Positions 1,184 to 19,063 of a stretch of DNA of 19,063 bases are shown piece after piece. This DNA comes from a bacterium. Lineage in GTDB: Bacteria; JAMCPX01. The translations under genes were made by a program, and so were the position numbers. Location of the stretch: assembly GCA_021789095.1 (NCBI GenBank), contig JAJYJX010000021.1, positions 1 to 19,063 of the forward strand, in the 5' to 3' direction. The stretch's first letter is position 1; each line of letters starts with the position of its first letter. The notes beneath the pieces are model-generated. The model made no database searches and had not been told where the DNA came from. It was given only the letters and a program-made list of their open reading frames with translations.

Positions 1184-2122
1184 TTAAATAAAACTATAGC
1201 TCAACCCTACAACCCATACGGCCTGAGGGGTGATATAAGCAGGGCCGCCTGTTGACTGGCTAAGCTTTTTTGATAATGAAAGCTCAACGGCTGCTGCAAT
1301 CCTCAGCCCCTTCACAGGTGTGAAAAAGAGTATGCCCGGCGTAATATACATGGGGTTCTCTGAAAATGTTACGCTGCTGTATGACGGGTCTGTCAATGCA
1401 TACGAACTGTACTTGCCTGCAAACTGCGACGTAAATTCGATCATGGGTTCTATGTAGTATTTTGGCAGCGGGAACAGGACGGATATGCCCATAAGCGTGA
1501 GGTTGTCGCCCCTTATGCCCATTGCATATTTACCGACAGGCGGCAGCAGGTTGTTGTCATTCGATGGTATGAGATGCTGCGTGTTGTCCCACAGGTATCC
1601 AATACGCAGGTTTGCAATCATCGGGAAAGACAGGCCTGAATTGCTCATATCATAGGATGCAAGCAAACTGAGCGTATAGCCCGTTGCATGACCATTGTAT
1701 CCTGCACTGTTGCCGCTGTTGGTGACCTTGCTGTACAGCAGCGCTTCCGCAAGTGCGCCGATGCTCAGGTGGGGCATGAATTCCCGGCTCCCCTTTATGC
1801 CTATTCTGAGATCACCTGAATAGTGAAGATTCTGGGAATTTACATCGCTTGAAGAGTTCGTTGAGCCGAGAGATACTTCAAGGTATTCGAGCGGTGCATA
1901 AGAAATTGCGCCGTAAACGGTATCATTCTCGAGTTTGCTTCCGGCTCCAAGCATGTTTTTCTGGGACGAATACGTGTTGTATAGTGCGATATTCGCACCG
2001 CCTTTTTTTATGAACGCCGTGGGTACGTTGATTGAGCCGCTTTGCCCTGTAAAGGAAACTTCCGCATATGCAACACCACTGAACAATAAAAGACTTATAA
2101 AAGCTGTAAAACATGTTTTCAT
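1184..2122 (-). CDS. Predicted outer-membrane beta-barrel protein with signal peptide
   Basis: This is a 312-residue protein with a clear signal peptide (about residues 1-20, ending VAYA before EVSF). After cleavage come a Gly/Ser-rich segment with the motif SGSINVPTA and many alternating hydrophobic stretches typical of outer-membrane strands. The protein ends in an aromatic-rich strand, VVGLSYSFI; a terminal strand close to a final aromatic residue is common in BAM-assembled barrels. The SINVPTA segment resembles the opening motif of YjbH-like exopolysaccharide proteins, but I cannot assign it to that family. The start has AAGGAG at good spacing. It lies 58 bases downstream of the radical SAM gene and may be the last gene of that operon or have its own promoter. 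Substrate and function are unknown. Confidence 0.7.
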   Translation of the reverse strand: MKTCFTAFISLLLFSGVAYAEVSFTGQSGSINVPTAFIKKGGANIALYNTYSSQKNMLGAGSKLENDTVYGAISYAPLEYLEVSLGSTNSSSDVNSQNLHYSGDLRIGIKGSREFMPHLSIGALAEALLYSKVTNSGNSAGYNGHATGYTLSLLASYDMSNSGLSFPMIANLRIGYLWDNTQHLIPSNDNNLLPPVGKYAMGIRGDNLTLMGISVLFPLPKYYIEPMIEFTSQFAGKYSSYALTDPSYSSVTFSENPMYITPGILFFTPVKGLRIAAAVELSLSKKLSQSTGGPAYITPQAVWVVGLSYSFI

Positions 2123-2180: not shown

Positions 2181-3251
2181 CTACCGGTCTTTTTTCCCGG
2201 AGATATGTTTTTTCTCTGCATGCCTGTGTTTTGTTTTAATGTAGTCCTTTGCCCATGGGTCATCCTTGTATTTCTGGATCCAGTCGATCTTGTTAAAGTA
2301 TTTTGAACAGTAAAAACACGGAAAGTAATCGAGATCCGTGGCGCCGCCGCTCTTTATGAACTCTATCTTGTCAATATTGAATTTGTGTATCATGTCTGCC
2401 CACATCTTATGGGCGTCGTACAGGTTTACCGTGTTAAGGTCTGCCACGGTATCGAGTTCCTGCTCCGGCGCATCAGTATAGCCTGAAAGCTGGCAGCAGA
2501 ATGTAAGCCTGCCTTTGTAGTCAACATTCGGTGAATACATTGTAAGCGCCCTGCACTGGAAGAACATGAGCGGCTCATGGTGTCCCAGTGAGAAGTTTAT
2601 CTCGATCTTCATAACTGATTTCAGCCTTTCCACCCTTTGCTCGGCTTCCCGGTACTGCTGTGGGCTCAGCACAAGGTCTTGTTCGTAGGCACGGTCGGTA
2701 GGCTCAAGGTGCGCATAGAACAGCCTTTTTAGCCCAAGTTCGGATGCAAGCATTGCCATCTGTTCTATTTCGTGAAAATTCTTTTTGTTGATGGTGATCT
2801 GTACACTTATATCGATGCCTTTTATCTTAAGTATGCTGATTGCCTGCATTATCTTTTTGAACGAACCCTTGCCCCTTATGTAGTCATGCGTTTTTTCCGT
2901 TGCACCATCAAGGGAAATGGAAACACCGGAAAGCTTGCTAAGCCTGCCTGGGAAACGGGGATCGTTAAGTATTTTCCATACGGCAAGGAAATTCCATGCA
3001 TTTGTTACAAAGTGGTACGTATATCCATACTTCACGACTGTATCTATAATCCTGCTGAAATGCGGGTGGAGCGTAGGCTCACCACCTGTAAATGCAATAT
3101 GTTGCAGGTTGTACGATTTTGCCTGCTTGAGTATGCTGTCAAACAGCTCGACGGGTATATAGCTTCTCATGTCCGCCTTGTCCCTGAGGCAGTGCAGGCA
3201 GCTCAGGTTGCACTTGTTCGTAAGCTCGAAACTCATCTCATAGAACGACAT
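2181..3251 (-). CDS. Radical SAM enzyme with SPASM/twitch-like C-terminal cysteines
   Basis: This is a 356-residue radical SAM protein. The cluster-binding motif Cx3Cx2C is at residues 14, 18 and 21 (CNLSCLHC). The SAM-binding GGEP motif is at 56-59 and a SLDG strand at 113-116. Further cysteines at 233, 252-253, 312 and 315 (the last pair in PCFYC) sit after a DYKGRLTFCC stretch like that of SPASM or twitch domains, which hold auxiliary Fe-S clusters. Relatives include peptide-modifying enzymes (PqqE type) and anaerobic sulfatase maturases; the substrate here cannot be read from sequence. The C-terminal 30 residues are rich in Lys, Arg and His. The start overlaps the upstream kinase-like gene by 14 bases and has AAGGAG inside that gene, so the two are translated from one message. 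No obvious precursor peptide gene is adjacent. Confidence 0.85.
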   Translation of the reverse strand: MSFYEMSFELTNKCNLSCLHCLRDKADMRSYIPVELFDSILKQAKSYNLQHIAFTGGEPTLHPHFSRIIDTVVKYGYTYHFVTNAWNFLAVWKILNDPRFPGRLSKLSGVSISLDGATEKTHDYIRGKGSFKKIMQAISILKIKGIDISVQITINKKNFHEIEQMAMLASELGLKRLFYAHLEPTDRAYEQDLVLSPQQYREAEQRVERLKSVMKIEINFSLGHHEPLMFFQCRALTMYSPNVDYKGRLTFCCQLSGYTDAPEQELDTVADLNTVNLYDAHKMWADMIHKFNIDKIEFIKSGGATDLDYFPCFYCSKYFNKIDWIQKYKDDPWAKDYIKTKHRHAEKKHISGKKDR

Positions 3252-4245
3252 TCTTATCTCCTTTTGCCTTATGCAATAAGTCTATCACAATCAGGGGATC
3301 TTTCAAAAGGTCCCTGCCGCACACACACCGGTACGCCCCGGCCTGGTTGAGAAGCATCTTCAACGTTTGTATGTGCCTGTCTACATACAATTTGTTAAAA
3401 AAGACCATACTTAACGACTGCGGTATGAGCAGCGACATTGCCTGTGTTTTGCTCAGGGGGGTCATCTCGGTTTTCTGTTTTTTGCCGAGTTCGATAAAAA
3501 GTATACTGTCCGGTATTACGGAATCAACTGTTTTGAAATGAGTATAGGGTATTAACGATTTTCTGGACGGCGGTTTCGGCAATTGTACATCGTTCAGCAA
3601 ATGCCTGTAATGGAGTACGGTGTTTCTGGTTGCGTGTATATTTCTTTTAAACCCGATGGCCGTAAGCTTTTTCCTGCGCCGGGCCAGCAGAACGGCGTCG
3701 TCGGAGCACAGGGTATAGCCGTTCAACGCGAGCCCGAGTGTCAGTGTTGTTTTGCCCGACATGCTCATGCCGCACAGCAGGATCGAATGCCTGTTGTCCG
3801 TAACAGCTCCGGCATGGAGATAGTAGAGGTTATGATACCTGAGGAGCTCTATCAAGGCCAATGCCAGGAAGATGGATACAAGTTCCGGGTATTTTCCCAA
3901 CGTTGCACGATCGACAAAAACAACGGCTTTTCTCTCTTTTGTGTTGATGATCATCGATGTTTTTTGATCGCACAGGAGCAAGGTGTCGTTGTCCAGGGCG
4001 TACCCCTTTATTATTCCATACGTAAACAGGAGAGGGACGCTTTTGTCATACCGTAAACGTATCTTCCGGGAAACGTAAAGTTTTACATGGATATGATGCT
4101 GTGGAGCGGCCTGCGGTGCTTTTATATCACGGGTCTTGTACCCGGCAAAAAATGCCTTTAGGGCATGAAACAATGCGCGCTTATCAGCTTCGATCAGTAT
4201 GTTTACACCGGCTATATCCAATAAGAAACTTGAACTTGAGTTCAT
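3238..4245 (-). CDS. HPr kinase-like P-loop protein (HprK C-terminal-like, ScmC-like)
   Basis: This is a 335-residue protein with a Walker A motif GMSMSGKTT at residues 159-167. Before it lies the HAGAV strand (144-148) and after it the acidic pair SDD (181-183). This order (LHAGAV, G-x-S-x-S-GKTT, then G-Y-x-L-x-SDD about 15 residues on) is characteristic of HPr kinase/phosphorylase-like domains. Those are found in true HprK, in RiPP-associated kinases, and in the ScmC proteins of SynChlorMet cassettes beside radical SAM genes. A GFKRNIHAT stretch follows at 198-206. The first 130 residues are not recognised and may bind a partner. No HPr or PTS gene is in the window, so a role as a true HPr kinase is unlikely. 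Its ATG overlaps the stop of the nucleotidyltransferase gene as ATGA, and the radical SAM gene starts inside its 3' end. The phosphorylated substrate is unknown. Confidence 0.75.
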   Translation of the reverse strand: MNSSSSFLLDIAGVNILIEADKRALFHALKAFFAGYKTRDIKAPQAAPQHHIHVKLYVSRKIRLRYDKSVPLLFTYGIIKGYALDNDTLLLCDQKTSMIINTKERKAVVFVDRATLGKYPELVSIFLALALIELLRYHNLYYLHAGAVTDNRHSILLCGMSMSGKTTLTLGLALNGYTLCSDDAVLLARRRKKLTAIGFKRNIHATRNTVLHYRHLLNDVQLPKPPSRKSLIPYTHFKTVDSVIPDSILFIELGKKQKTEMTPLSKTQAMSLLIPQSLSMVFFNKLYVDRHIQTLKMLLNQAGAYRCVCGRDLLKDPLIVIDLLHKAKGDKNVVL

Positions 4246-4940
4246 TCTTTAAAGAACCTTCTTGCAAGTTCTAATCTATCCGAACTGCCGATGTCAATCC
4301 ACAGCCCGCTGTGCACGTATCCCGCGATGAGCCTCTTGCTCCTGAGCATTTCCGGATACAGGTGCATGGTTGTTGAGGGCTGATGCAGGTTTCCGGGGAT
4401 ATAACTGATTGCCTCAGGCTTTAAGATCTGGATGCCTGTAAAGATATAGGGGGTGGTATCAGGGAAAGGTGTAAAAAGACTCTTTACGTATGCCTGTCCG
4501 TCGAGATAGATATTGGCGATGTTCATGTCCTGCGGCGTTGCTTTATACAATACCATAAGAGCGTCTGCGTTCTTCGTATGCATACGCTGCGGGAGTATGG
4601 CAAGGTCGATGTCGAACAGGATGTCGCCGTTTATGAGATAAAACGGTTCATCGAGCATGTGCCGTGCCCACAGCAAAGCTCCGGCCGTGCCTTTGATAAC
4701 GGGTTCGTGCGAGTAGCGTATGTCCAATCCATACGCCGAACCATCGCCAAGCCTGTCCTCGATCAAGGCTCCAAGGTGGTGAAGATTTATGACAACGCTT
4801 TTAACCCCTGCTTTTTTCAGTGCATCGAGCGTGTATTCAATGACGGGTTTTCCGTTTATTTCAACAAGAGGTTTTGGAATGCTTTCAGTGATGGGTTTCA
4901 GCCTTGTCCCAAATCCCGCCGCGAGTATCATTGCTTTCAT
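4242..4940 (-). CDS. Sugar-1-phosphate nucleotidyltransferase (MurU/HddC/RmlA-like)
   Basis: This 232-residue protein of the NTP_transferase family transfers a nucleotide from NTP to a sugar-1-phosphate to make an activated sugar. The N-terminus has the signature AAGFGTRL (7-14) followed by PKPL (22-25). A GTAGAL loop lies at 84-89 and NGDILFDID at 104-112 supplies the metal-binding Asp. The protein ends with GLWIDIGSSDRL, typical of short single-domain members such as MurU and HddC. It lacks the left-handed helix domain of GlmU. It is the first gene of the minus-strand operon and overlaps the kinase-like gene by four bases. The start is supported by the family N-terminus, with a modest AAGGGA upstream. 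The sugar and nucleotide specificity cannot be assigned. Confidence 0.85.
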   Translation of the reverse strand: MKAMILAAGFGTRLKPITESIPKPLVEINGKPVIEYTLDALKKAGVKSVVINLHHLGALIEDRLGDGSAYGLDIRYSHEPVIKGTAGALLWARHMLDEPFYLINGDILFDIDLAILPQRMHTKNADALMVLYKATPQDMNIANIYLDGQAYVKSLFTPFPDTTPYIFTGIQILKPEAISYIPGNLHQPSTTMHLYPEMLRSKRLIAGYVHSGLWIDIGSSDRLELARRFFKE

Positions 4941-17760: not shown

Positions 17761-18846
17761 TCATTTTGTACCTCCATTGTTTTTTCGTTCGCTTATCTTT
17801 TTGATTGCATAAAGAGTAGTTAAAGTTCCGCCAATTATAGCAGTCCACCCTAAAAAATATTTCCAATTAGATTTAGGTGTTTCTTTGTAGTATTTTTTTA
17901 TGTGCTTAGGGTTTGGATAATAAGGGTGTGCTGGTTCTGTAAAGTCCTCATAGGTTCTTGACCTCTGAAACATTAAAAGTTTAAGCACGTCATTGAATAC
18001 CTCTATCGGATTCCGTCTATTGTCGAACCGTACCGTAAACTCATTGAGATAGTTCTGCAAATGCTTTTTCGATACAAACCTATGTGTACCAGTGATCCAT
18101 GCTTTCAGATTTGAAAATACAATATGTATCTTAGGAAGCTGTTTACTTGCATCCTCTGGAATGTTTAGTCTTACTGGTTTGTGGTTATATCCAAATCTTT
18201 TTAAGCCATTGTAACCACCCCAGCTATCCGTTATAATTGTTGATCCCTTTACTATATGATCCTTTACAAAGCTTTCAAGGTTTGCGGCACTGGCAGAGCT
18301 TATTTCCCTTAAAAATACCCTTCCAGAAGCATATCCCTTATAAACCTCTACCGCACCCACTACAAGAGCTTTATTGCCCTTTAAAGAGCGTCCCTGTTCG
18401 TCTCCGCTGTATAAATAGGTTTCGTCAACCTCAACTGTGCCTTTCAGCTTGTCTGTTTCATCTTCTGATACCATTCCAAGCCTTAATTTCTGTAACCACG
18501 CCCATGCGGTCTGATATGAACCAAAATCCATCTGCCGGTATAATTCCATAGCGGATATGCCTGTTTTTTGTGTTGATATGGTATAGATAGCCCAGAACCA
18601 TTCTGCAAGGGGTTTATGGGTGTTTTTCATAATGGTCTCTGATATAATGCTTTCCTCGTGTCCACAGCGGTTACATCTTACTGACTCGTGGGAAGGTAAG
18701 TATGTATATTGGTTGTAATTGCATATCCGGCACGTCCATCCGTCCTTACCGAATTTAAGATCGATGATATAGGCAAGGCATTTCTCATCAGTATTAAAGT
18801 ACCGCATGAAGTCCATTACTGTGCGTATGTGAGGAAGATCAGTCAT
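17761..18846 (-). CDS. IS1595-family (ISXO2-like) transposase with C-terminal membrane segment
   Basis: This is a 361-residue protein from ATG at 18846, which has AAAGGA upstream; an in-frame ATG at 18876 has no ribosome binding site. Residues 39, 42, 58 and 61 are cysteines of an N-terminal zinc ribbon, normal for IS1595 transposases. The DDE-like domain shows Asp141 (VEVDETY), Asp207 (ITDSWGGY) and, instead of a third Glu, His241 with Asn246 in HIVFSNLKAW. That pattern corresponds to a known IS1595 subgroup. The GTHRFVSKKHLQNYLNEFTVRF helix region follows. After about residue 300 the protein continues into an atypical tail with a hydrophobic helix (331-348), flanked by Lys and Arg. No convincing terminal inverted repeats were found. 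It starts five bases after the stop of an upstream gene. Confidence 0.85.
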   Translation of the reverse strand: MTDLPHIRTVMDFMRYFNTDEKCLAYIIDLKFGKDGWTCRICNYNQYTYLPSHESVRCNRCGHEESIISETIMKNTHKPLAEWFWAIYTISTQKTGISAMELYRQMDFGSYQTAWAWLQKLRLGMVSEDETDKLKGTVEVDETYLYSGDEQGRSLKGNKALVVGAVEVYKGYASGRVFLREISSASAANLESFVKDHIVKGSTIITDSWGGYNGLKRFGYNHKPVRLNIPEDASKQLPKIHIVFSNLKAWITGTHRFVSKKHLQNYLNEFTVRFDNRRNPIEVFNDVLKLLMFQRSRTYEDFTEPAHPYYPNPKHIKKYYKETPKSNWKYFLGWTAIIGGTLTTLYAIKKISERKNNGGTK

Positions 18847-18850
18847 ATAT

Positions 18851-19063
18851 TTATCCTTTAAAATAATATTTAACATGCAACCATAAAATCCGTATACTCC
18901 ATTTCAAAGAATAATGAATATTCTTACTGAGTATATCTCTTAATATTGCTGATTCTCTTTTTATAGTATCAGTAAGTTCAATTATTTTTTCTTTATTATT
19001 ATAAAAAAGTTTATTCCAATTATCAAAATTAGGATGATTAAGCTCTGTTGTTTTAGAATAAAG
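18851..19063 (-). CDS. 3' end of an unrecognised gene, truncated by the window edge
   Basis: An open frame enters from the right edge and runs for 70 codons to TAA at 18853-18851. The visible part contains NWNKLFYNN, a helical stretch KEKIIELTDTIKRESAILRD, and a basic, hydrophobic C-terminus (SLKWSIRILWLHVKYYFKG) that could lie on a membrane. The base composition is extreme; the 60 bases at 18961-19020 contain only nine G or C. Its stop is four bases before the transposase start codon, and the transposase ribosome binding site lies within its last codons, as expected for genes of one operon. The frame could be chance because AT-rich DNA has many stops and this stretch has none, which favours a real gene, but the evidence is limited. 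Confidence 0.5.
   Translation of the reverse strand, partial: LYSKTTELNHPNFDNWNKLFYNNKEKIIELTDTIKRESAILRDILSKNIHYSLKWSIRILWLHVKYYFKG

Follow-up and report, generated by a model that had tools for sequence, protein, structure and literature searches.

Among the pathways in which an HprK-like kinase acts on a peptide, those of the kinase-tailored lasso peptides, e.g., paeninodin (PadeK/ThcoK) and pseudomycoidin (PsmK/PsmN), come closest to the system presented here. The kinases PadeK and ThcoK, which phosphorylate a serine of the precursor, need a His-Lys-Asp-Asp motif, as established by mutation, and the phosphoserine of pseudomycoidin is hexosylated by PsmN, a protein annotated as nucleotidyltransferase (PMC9266682). 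The leader of lasso peptides contains a conserved threonine with a role at position -2 (PMC10885120). In addition, RRE-Finder counted some 300 lasso-model RiPP recognition elements (RREs) beside radical SAM (S-adenosylmethionine) enzymes, which were labelled as false positives (PMC7470986). The present study deals with three overlapping genes located in a stretch of 19,063 nucleotides (the window; contig JAJYJX010000021.1 of assembly GCA_021789095.1), which belongs to a bacterial metagenome-assembled genome (MAG) of 2.15 Mb in 203 contigs, referred to as G000. All three are read from the reverse strand and encode a sugar-1-phosphate nucleotidyltransferase of 232 amino acids (4242..4940), an HprK/PEPCK-type P-loop kinase of 335 amino acids (3238..4245) and a radical SAM enzyme of 356 amino acids (2181..3251). 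The overlaps reported in the initial annotation were measured as 4 bases (4242-4245) and 14 bases (3238-3251), and its domain calls agree with Pfam, with NCBIfam matches of low score, with PDB sequences and with predicted folds.

The kinase and the radical SAM enzyme probably act as two tailoring enzymes of a pathway for a ribosomally synthesized and post-translationally modified peptide (RiPP) dispersed over at least three loci of G000, from which the nucleotidyltransferase most likely stands apart. On the best reading of the data, this is an uncharacterized RiPP pathway with the logic of kinase-tailored lasso biosynthesis, except that a radical SAM enzyme replaces the lasso cyclase.

The conserved kinase and radical SAM pair

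The window's family consists of nine genomes (G000-G008), and 22 radical SAM loci were compared, including 17 loci outside this family, all genomes being MAGs. In 21 of the 22 loci, the kinase is located upstream of the radical SAM gene on the same strand, mostly overlapping it or at a distance of 60 nt or less. The sole locus devoid of a kinase beside the radical SAM gene (L044) is an 8-kb contig, and the kinase reading frame of another locus (L049) is broken. Within the family, the kinase occurs in five of the nine genomes, each time with an adjoining radical SAM gene, and the copies are 72-82% identical to the window's protein for the radical SAM enzyme and 43-50% for the kinase. A search of the genome contigs with the kinase alone gave no match, and the search with the radical SAM profile succeeded, retrieving relatives from Schekmanbacteria, Sericytochromatia, Deltaproteobacteria, Nitrospira and the anammox planctomycetes (Brocadia, Jettenia, Loosdrechtia), together with Thermodesulfovibrionia, Desulfosarcina, a gammaproteobacterium and Trueperaceae. 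The kinase and the radical SAM enzyme form a conserved pair across several phyla, in line with the initial suggestion that both belong together. Related cassettes of different composition occur in G055 (contig C12) and G009 (contig C19), i.e., loci L023 and L025, where HprK-like kinases and NTP_transf_5 are found without this radical SAM enzyme, L025 also encoding a PqqD protein. A Paceibacterota contig (L059:2203-7650) carries five consecutive radical SAM genes.

The kinase is an HprK-related protein, whose P-loop region matches the models of the HprK-related kinases A and B. Among PDB sequences its profile retrieves the HPr kinase 1ko7 (E 4e-9), and its AlphaFold model, with a predicted local distance difference test score (pLDDT) of 90, resembles PEPCK (E 1e-9) and HprK (E 4e-6) in Foldseek searches. 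This model confirms, at the level of a predicted structure, an HprK/PEPCK fold with a Walker A motif and catalytic His and Asp residues, as the HprK-like layout noticed at first had led to expect. His144, Gly-Lys 164-165 and Asp182-Asp183 are invariant across the aligned copies. Since this set corresponds to the His-Lys-Asp-Asp motif of the lasso-peptide kinases, the enzyme is presumed to be a Ser/Thr kinase of the precursor; nearly all precursor cores possess a Ser or Thr at no more than two residues from the Phe-Phe (FF) pair.

The radical SAM enzyme (Radical_SAM, E 2.4e-21) contains the cluster motif CX3CX2C (C14, C18, C21) and the extra cysteines mentioned in the initial annotation, namely C233, C252, C253, C312 and C315, all eight being invariant in the 22 sequences. 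Its C-terminus resembles a truncated SPASM/twitch region (C233-X13-G247-X4-C252-C253 ... C312-X2-C315), in which C233-X13-G-X4-C252 and C312-X2-C315 would make up a twitch-type domain with one cluster, and the additional Cys253 could be catalytic. The AlphaFold model (pLDDT 89) finds its nearest folds in SkfB, SuiB, BlsE and PqqE, so that by fold it comes closest to RiPP maturases, and the protein is presumed to be a peptide maturase.

Precursor peptides and their partners

An all-against-all comparison of open reading frames (ORFs) revealed 13 precursor peptides of 52-62 amino acids, whose genes precede that of the kinase in 12 loci outside the window's family. A Pro, a Leu, a Thr and the FF..F motif are invariant in these peptides, which consist of a leader (...EPKLTFIEPKLTKHGDATKIT) and a core, GGFFGTFxP, with the variants SFFGTF, AFFGSFRP and SFFNVFTPA; the core motif outside the family is FFG[TS]F. 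The Thr, invariant in 17 precursors, matches the lasso leader Thr at -2, from which the cleavage site is deduced, and the Trueperaceae precursor passes the lasso-leader model with 23.7 bits for a cut-off of 19. On a Brocadia contig (L048:10296-11847), an additional precursor precedes an additional HprK-like kinase gene, which is split between frames.

The precursor of G000, a peptide of 64 amino acids ('...FIEPELREYPSLKEVTLLTMSGVSGATFFKTFK') encoded on contig C140, combines the lasso-type leader FIEPELREYPSLKEVT with a core whose last residues are TFFKTFK. It came from a whole-genome search with the precursor profile, which gave weak matches in G000, G003, G005 and G001, mutually homologous and 53-68% identical to the G000 copy. 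These family precursors share the pattern FIEPEL[RK]EYP[SP]L.E[VI]TLL and the end TFFKTF[KR], and a profile built from them recovers them with E values of 1e-31 to 1e-35, in addition to a divergent copy in G006, so that precursors occur in five of the seven family genomes searched. Pairwise comparison over 24 aligned codons shows 10-15 synonymous versus 2 non-synonymous differences, an excess which identifies the precursors as conserved coding genes under purifying selection. In G049, a distant relative whose enzymes are encoded together, four precursors ending with TFF or SFF occur in trans, at three other places of the genome. Around the two enzyme loci of the family, small ORFs carrying leader-like motifs amounted to chance-like matches, and only the whole-genome profile search revealed the precursor. 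Precursors with a leader and a core are encoded in cis (the 13 peptides) as well as in trans (the window's family and G049), as expected from a RiPP pathway.

The second attribute of such a pathway, a leader-binding protein of the PqqD type co-occurring with the kinase and the radical SAM enzyme, was equally found. Profile searches detected PqqD in 15 and the B2 leader peptidase in 15 of the 17 loci outside the family, and NTP_transf_5 (PF14907) in 10 of them. The B2 protein, a transglutaminase-like leader peptidase, scores above the NCBIfam cut-off for lasso B2 (NF033537) and its Cys and GHxW motif are conserved in 19/19 aligned sequences; PqqD matches the lasso PqqD/B1 models with scores under their cut-offs. 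In the window's family these genes make up a second locus, composed successively of a 917-aa lipoprotein, PqqD, a WD40-like (propeller) lipoprotein, B2 and NTP_transf_5, on contigs C2 of G001, C389 of G004 and C54 of G003. The corresponding genes of G000 are distributed on C195 (PqqD) and C179 (B2 and NTP_transf_5), with a contig boundary within the WD40-like gene separating the two parts of the locus. PqqD also occurs in G006, G007 and G008, the first two of which carry NTP_transf_5 too. The cassette of the family appears to be split over at least three loci, with the kinase and the radical SAM enzyme in one, PqqD, B2, NTP_transf_5 and two lipoproteins in another, and the precursor in a third. 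The initial statement that no PqqD-like chaperone and no precursor could be seen holds for the window; both are encoded elsewhere in the G000 genome. The 917-aa and the propeller lipoproteins of the second locus, in which neither a leader nor an FF core was recognized, were discarded as substrates.

In nearly all loci, with cis- and trans-encoded precursors alike, a large secreted protein or lipoprotein adjoins the precursor. At each of the three precursor places of G049, the next gene downstream encodes one of three paralogous lipoproteins of about 1050 amino acids; the precursor precedes a lipoprotein of 907-971 amino acids in G000 and G001, and follows a related secreted protein in G005 and G006. 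In the anammox planctomycetes, large secreted proteins upstream of the precursor (L048:435-1712, L048:5146-9519, L049:2687-6250 and L050:3848-6652; four cases in three loci) end with GFFGRFYP, GFFGRFRPK, GFFGRFRP and SFFGRFRP, a tail motif that is the core motif of the precursors (GFFGTFVP/SFFGTF). Among 1483 long ORFs from all collected loci, some of them duplicates, a C-terminal FFxxF was limited to these anammox proteins, one more Brocadia protein that shares this tail and two unrelated ORFs (L059, L109). Genome-wide, FFG[RS]F as a plain codon pattern shows no enrichment compared to a control, so that the significance of the tail lies in its C-terminal position. The match between tail and core points to recognition of the motif by a common factor, or to modification of the tail itself.

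A domain of about 110 amino acids ('ICLK..F.FFVDVLG'), usually near the C-terminus, is common to otherwise different large proteins upstream of the kinase in nine loci (L046, L047, L048, L049, L050, L051, L052, L054 and L055), and received no Pfam or NCBIfam name in the proteins scanned. As a precursor is repeatedly found together with a large surface protein, the product seems more likely to act at the cell surface than to be a diffusible antibiotic. A conserved secreted protein of about 180 amino acids also occurs upstream of the cassette (L046:3340-3915, L047:1942-2493, L051:1415-1969, L052:1708-2232, L054:2323-2898, L055:5522-6076); it resembles, by eye, the STN domain of secretins, and two members tested gave no Pfam match.

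Proposed pathway and alternative explanations

In the proposed pathway, the PqqD/B1 protein (C195) would bind the leader of the precursor, the HprK-like kinase would phosphorylate a Ser/Thr near the Phe-Phe pair, and the NTP_transf_5 protein (C179) would possibly extend the phosphate, by analogy with the role proposed for PsmN. The radical SAM enzyme would then introduce a C-H modification in the FF core and the B2 peptidase (C179) would cut after the conserved Thr-X, freeing a peptide of about 6-16 residues that would act with the large surface lipoprotein encoded beside the precursor. What the data themselves establish are the protein families, their conserved catalytic residues, the co-occurrence and joint absence of the parts and the purifying selection on the precursor. 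As to the nature of the modification, the cores contain no Cys, which excludes a sactipeptide-type thioether. Two reactions are candidates: an aromatic three-residue crosslink (F-x-T) fits FFGTF and FFKTF and misfits the cores ending with TFF or FFGGF, and a Cα epimerization, as in the case of the fold neighbor EpeE, would give a role to the additional invariant Cys253. More tentatively, these loci may represent a widespread, undescribed RiPP class of Nitrospira, anammox planctomycetes, Schekmanbacteria and other groups, in which the kinase and the radical SAM enzyme modify the Phe-Phe core and the product serves as a dedicated partner (a tag, a cofactor or a ligand) of the large surface protein adjoining the precursor; in anammox bacteria, this protein bears FFGxF at its own C-terminus.

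Some observations weigh against this scheme. The contigs C134, C140, C179 and C195 are joined only by MAG binning, and the first family precursors were individually weak matches (E 0.017 and 0.027), which gain weight from their mutual homology and from the precursors of G049. The enzymes occur in G004 (87% complete, 410 contigs), where the precursor search gave only a chance-like match, and the precursor profile found none in L043, L044 or G047. The precursor of G006 (L162:1486-1674, contig C93) keeps the leader and ends with GGSVY, devoid of FF; this end recalls the C-terminal Val-Tyr of the mycofactocin precursor. Finally, the B2, NTP_transf_5 and WD40-like genes of G003 (L140:5600-7400, contig C54) are split over frames, which may reflect a decay of the pathway in this genome or an assembly fault.

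The initial annotation had considered plausible a pathway in which a small molecule or a glycan is acted upon successively by the kinase, the nucleotidyltransferase and the radical SAM enzyme. The nucleotidyltransferase (NTP_transferase, E 1.8e-28; PDB 8hhd, E 3.6e-27) is closest to MurU, the N-acetylmuramate-1-phosphate uridylyltransferase, which it matches over its full length with 170.8 bits, below the equivalog cut-off of 250; MurU-type enzymes activate sugar-1-phosphates, and the gene adjoins or overlaps the pair in four family genomes (G000, G001, G004 and G006). None of the 17 related loci from outside the family, however, contains it. In G003 it lies next to the gene of an outer-membrane-type protein, on a different contig from the kinase and the radical SAM enzyme, and G002 (92% complete) keeps these same two genes side by side, while no kinase, radical SAM enzyme, PqqD, lasso-type B2, NTP_transf_5 or precursor was found in it; in G005, a congener of G002, the radical SAM gene stands at a contig end beside the outer-membrane-type gene. 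From the patterns of G002 and G003, gain or loss of the peptide pathway involves the kinase and the radical SAM enzyme, but leaves the nucleotidyltransferase and the outer-membrane-type gene unaffected. The scattering among related genomes that the initial annotation would have taken as a refutation of its operon thus concerns the nucleotidyltransferase and spares the pair. Despite its overlap with the kinase gene, the nucleotidyltransferase is most likely a bystander, outside the peptide pathway on this evidence, and would form a separate unit with the outer-membrane-type gene. Taking into account the peptide precursor and the leader-binding protein encoded at other loci, the small-molecule explanation is largely refuted and the least probable of all, and the comparison with RiPPs made at the same time has turned out to be the better lead.

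Two other explanations retain the peptide. The components of the cassette (a B1-like PqqD, B2, an HprK-type kinase, NTP_transf_5 and a leader which in one precursor passes the lasso model) would suit a true lasso peptide pathway with a cyclase encoded elsewhere, but this is very improbable, as none of the cassette loci contains an asparagine-synthetase-like cyclase and cores of 6-8 residues without Asp/Glu (SFFGTF, GFFGTFVP) cannot form a macrolactam. An AsnB-like gene near the second locus of G000 was discarded as a lasso cyclase, its best match being the XrtA/PEP-CTERM amidotransferase (523.8 bits) and its lasso cyclase score 214 for a cut-off of 525; it does not adjoin the second locus in G001. 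It is somewhat less improbable, yet still unlikely, that the system serves protein modification or surface sorting, the true target being the large secreted protein and the small peptide a regulator, a cofactor or a tag instead of a free natural product. The large proteins beside the precursors, the core-like tails of the anammox proteins and the domain common to nine loci speak for it, but the leader with the conserved Thr used by PqqD/B2 systems occurs in the small peptides only, and the C-terminal copy of the motif is restricted to the anammox loci, none being found in the window's family. The dispersed RiPP pathway remains preferred.

With respect to the neighboring genes, the outer-membrane-type protein (1184..2122, reverse strand), omitted from the initial annotation, possesses a signal peptide and a beta-barrel-like character judged by eye, with no Pfam or NCBIfam match; its gene starts 59 nt 3' of the radical SAM gene. 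A MauG/di-haem cytochrome c peroxidase gene (96-1166) adjoins the operon, and a gene 77% identical to it occurs near the operon of G004 (L018). An IS1595-type transposase (17761-18876) is located towards the end of the window.

Comparison with known systems

No description of the cassette, its precursors or its partner proteins was found in the literature searched, most subscription papers being outside its reach. The loci may belong among the lasso-model RREs adjacent to radical SAM enzymes counted by RRE-Finder, which are given in the available part of that report as numbers, without a cassette, a precursor or a partner (PMC7470986). A reading restricted to the window fails here because the precursor, the leader-binding protein and the peptidase are encoded in trans, and the gene overlapping the kinase is not a member of the pathway.

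The SynChlorMet cassettes (ScmC/D/E/F) contain the nearest NCBIfam relatives of the radical SAM enzyme, ScmF and ScmE, and PqqD weakly matches ScmD. The score of at most 90.6 bits is nevertheless far from the equivalog cut-off of 400, and the present system differs by a single radical SAM enzyme, by the presence of B2 and NTP_transf_5 and by another precursor. Similarly, the systems with HprK-related kinases A and B (TIGR04352/TIGR04355, with the PqqD family TIGR04353) resemble it by the P-loop region of the kinase and by a weak PqqD match, but the kinase reaches 35.1 and 41.7 bits for a cut-off of 200, and a radical SAM enzyme and B2 are present here.

The kinase-tailored lasso peptides share PqqD/B1, B2, an HprK-like kinase with the His-Lys-Asp-Asp motif, a nucleotidyltransferase-type gene and the leader Thr at -2 (PMC9266682, PMC10885120). 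In contrast to them, the present loci have a radical SAM enzyme and no cyclase, short FF cores devoid of a macrolactam acceptor, and precursors often encoded in trans; because no gene passed as the defining lasso cyclase, they are classed as a RiPP pathway and not as a lasso peptide system. With the precursors, the core motif and the full set of enzymes named, the chemistry becomes directly testable. Compared to these relatives, the pathway would join leader recognition, cleavage and kinase tailoring of the lasso type to radical SAM chemistry without a cyclase, in bacterial groups with few known RiPPs.

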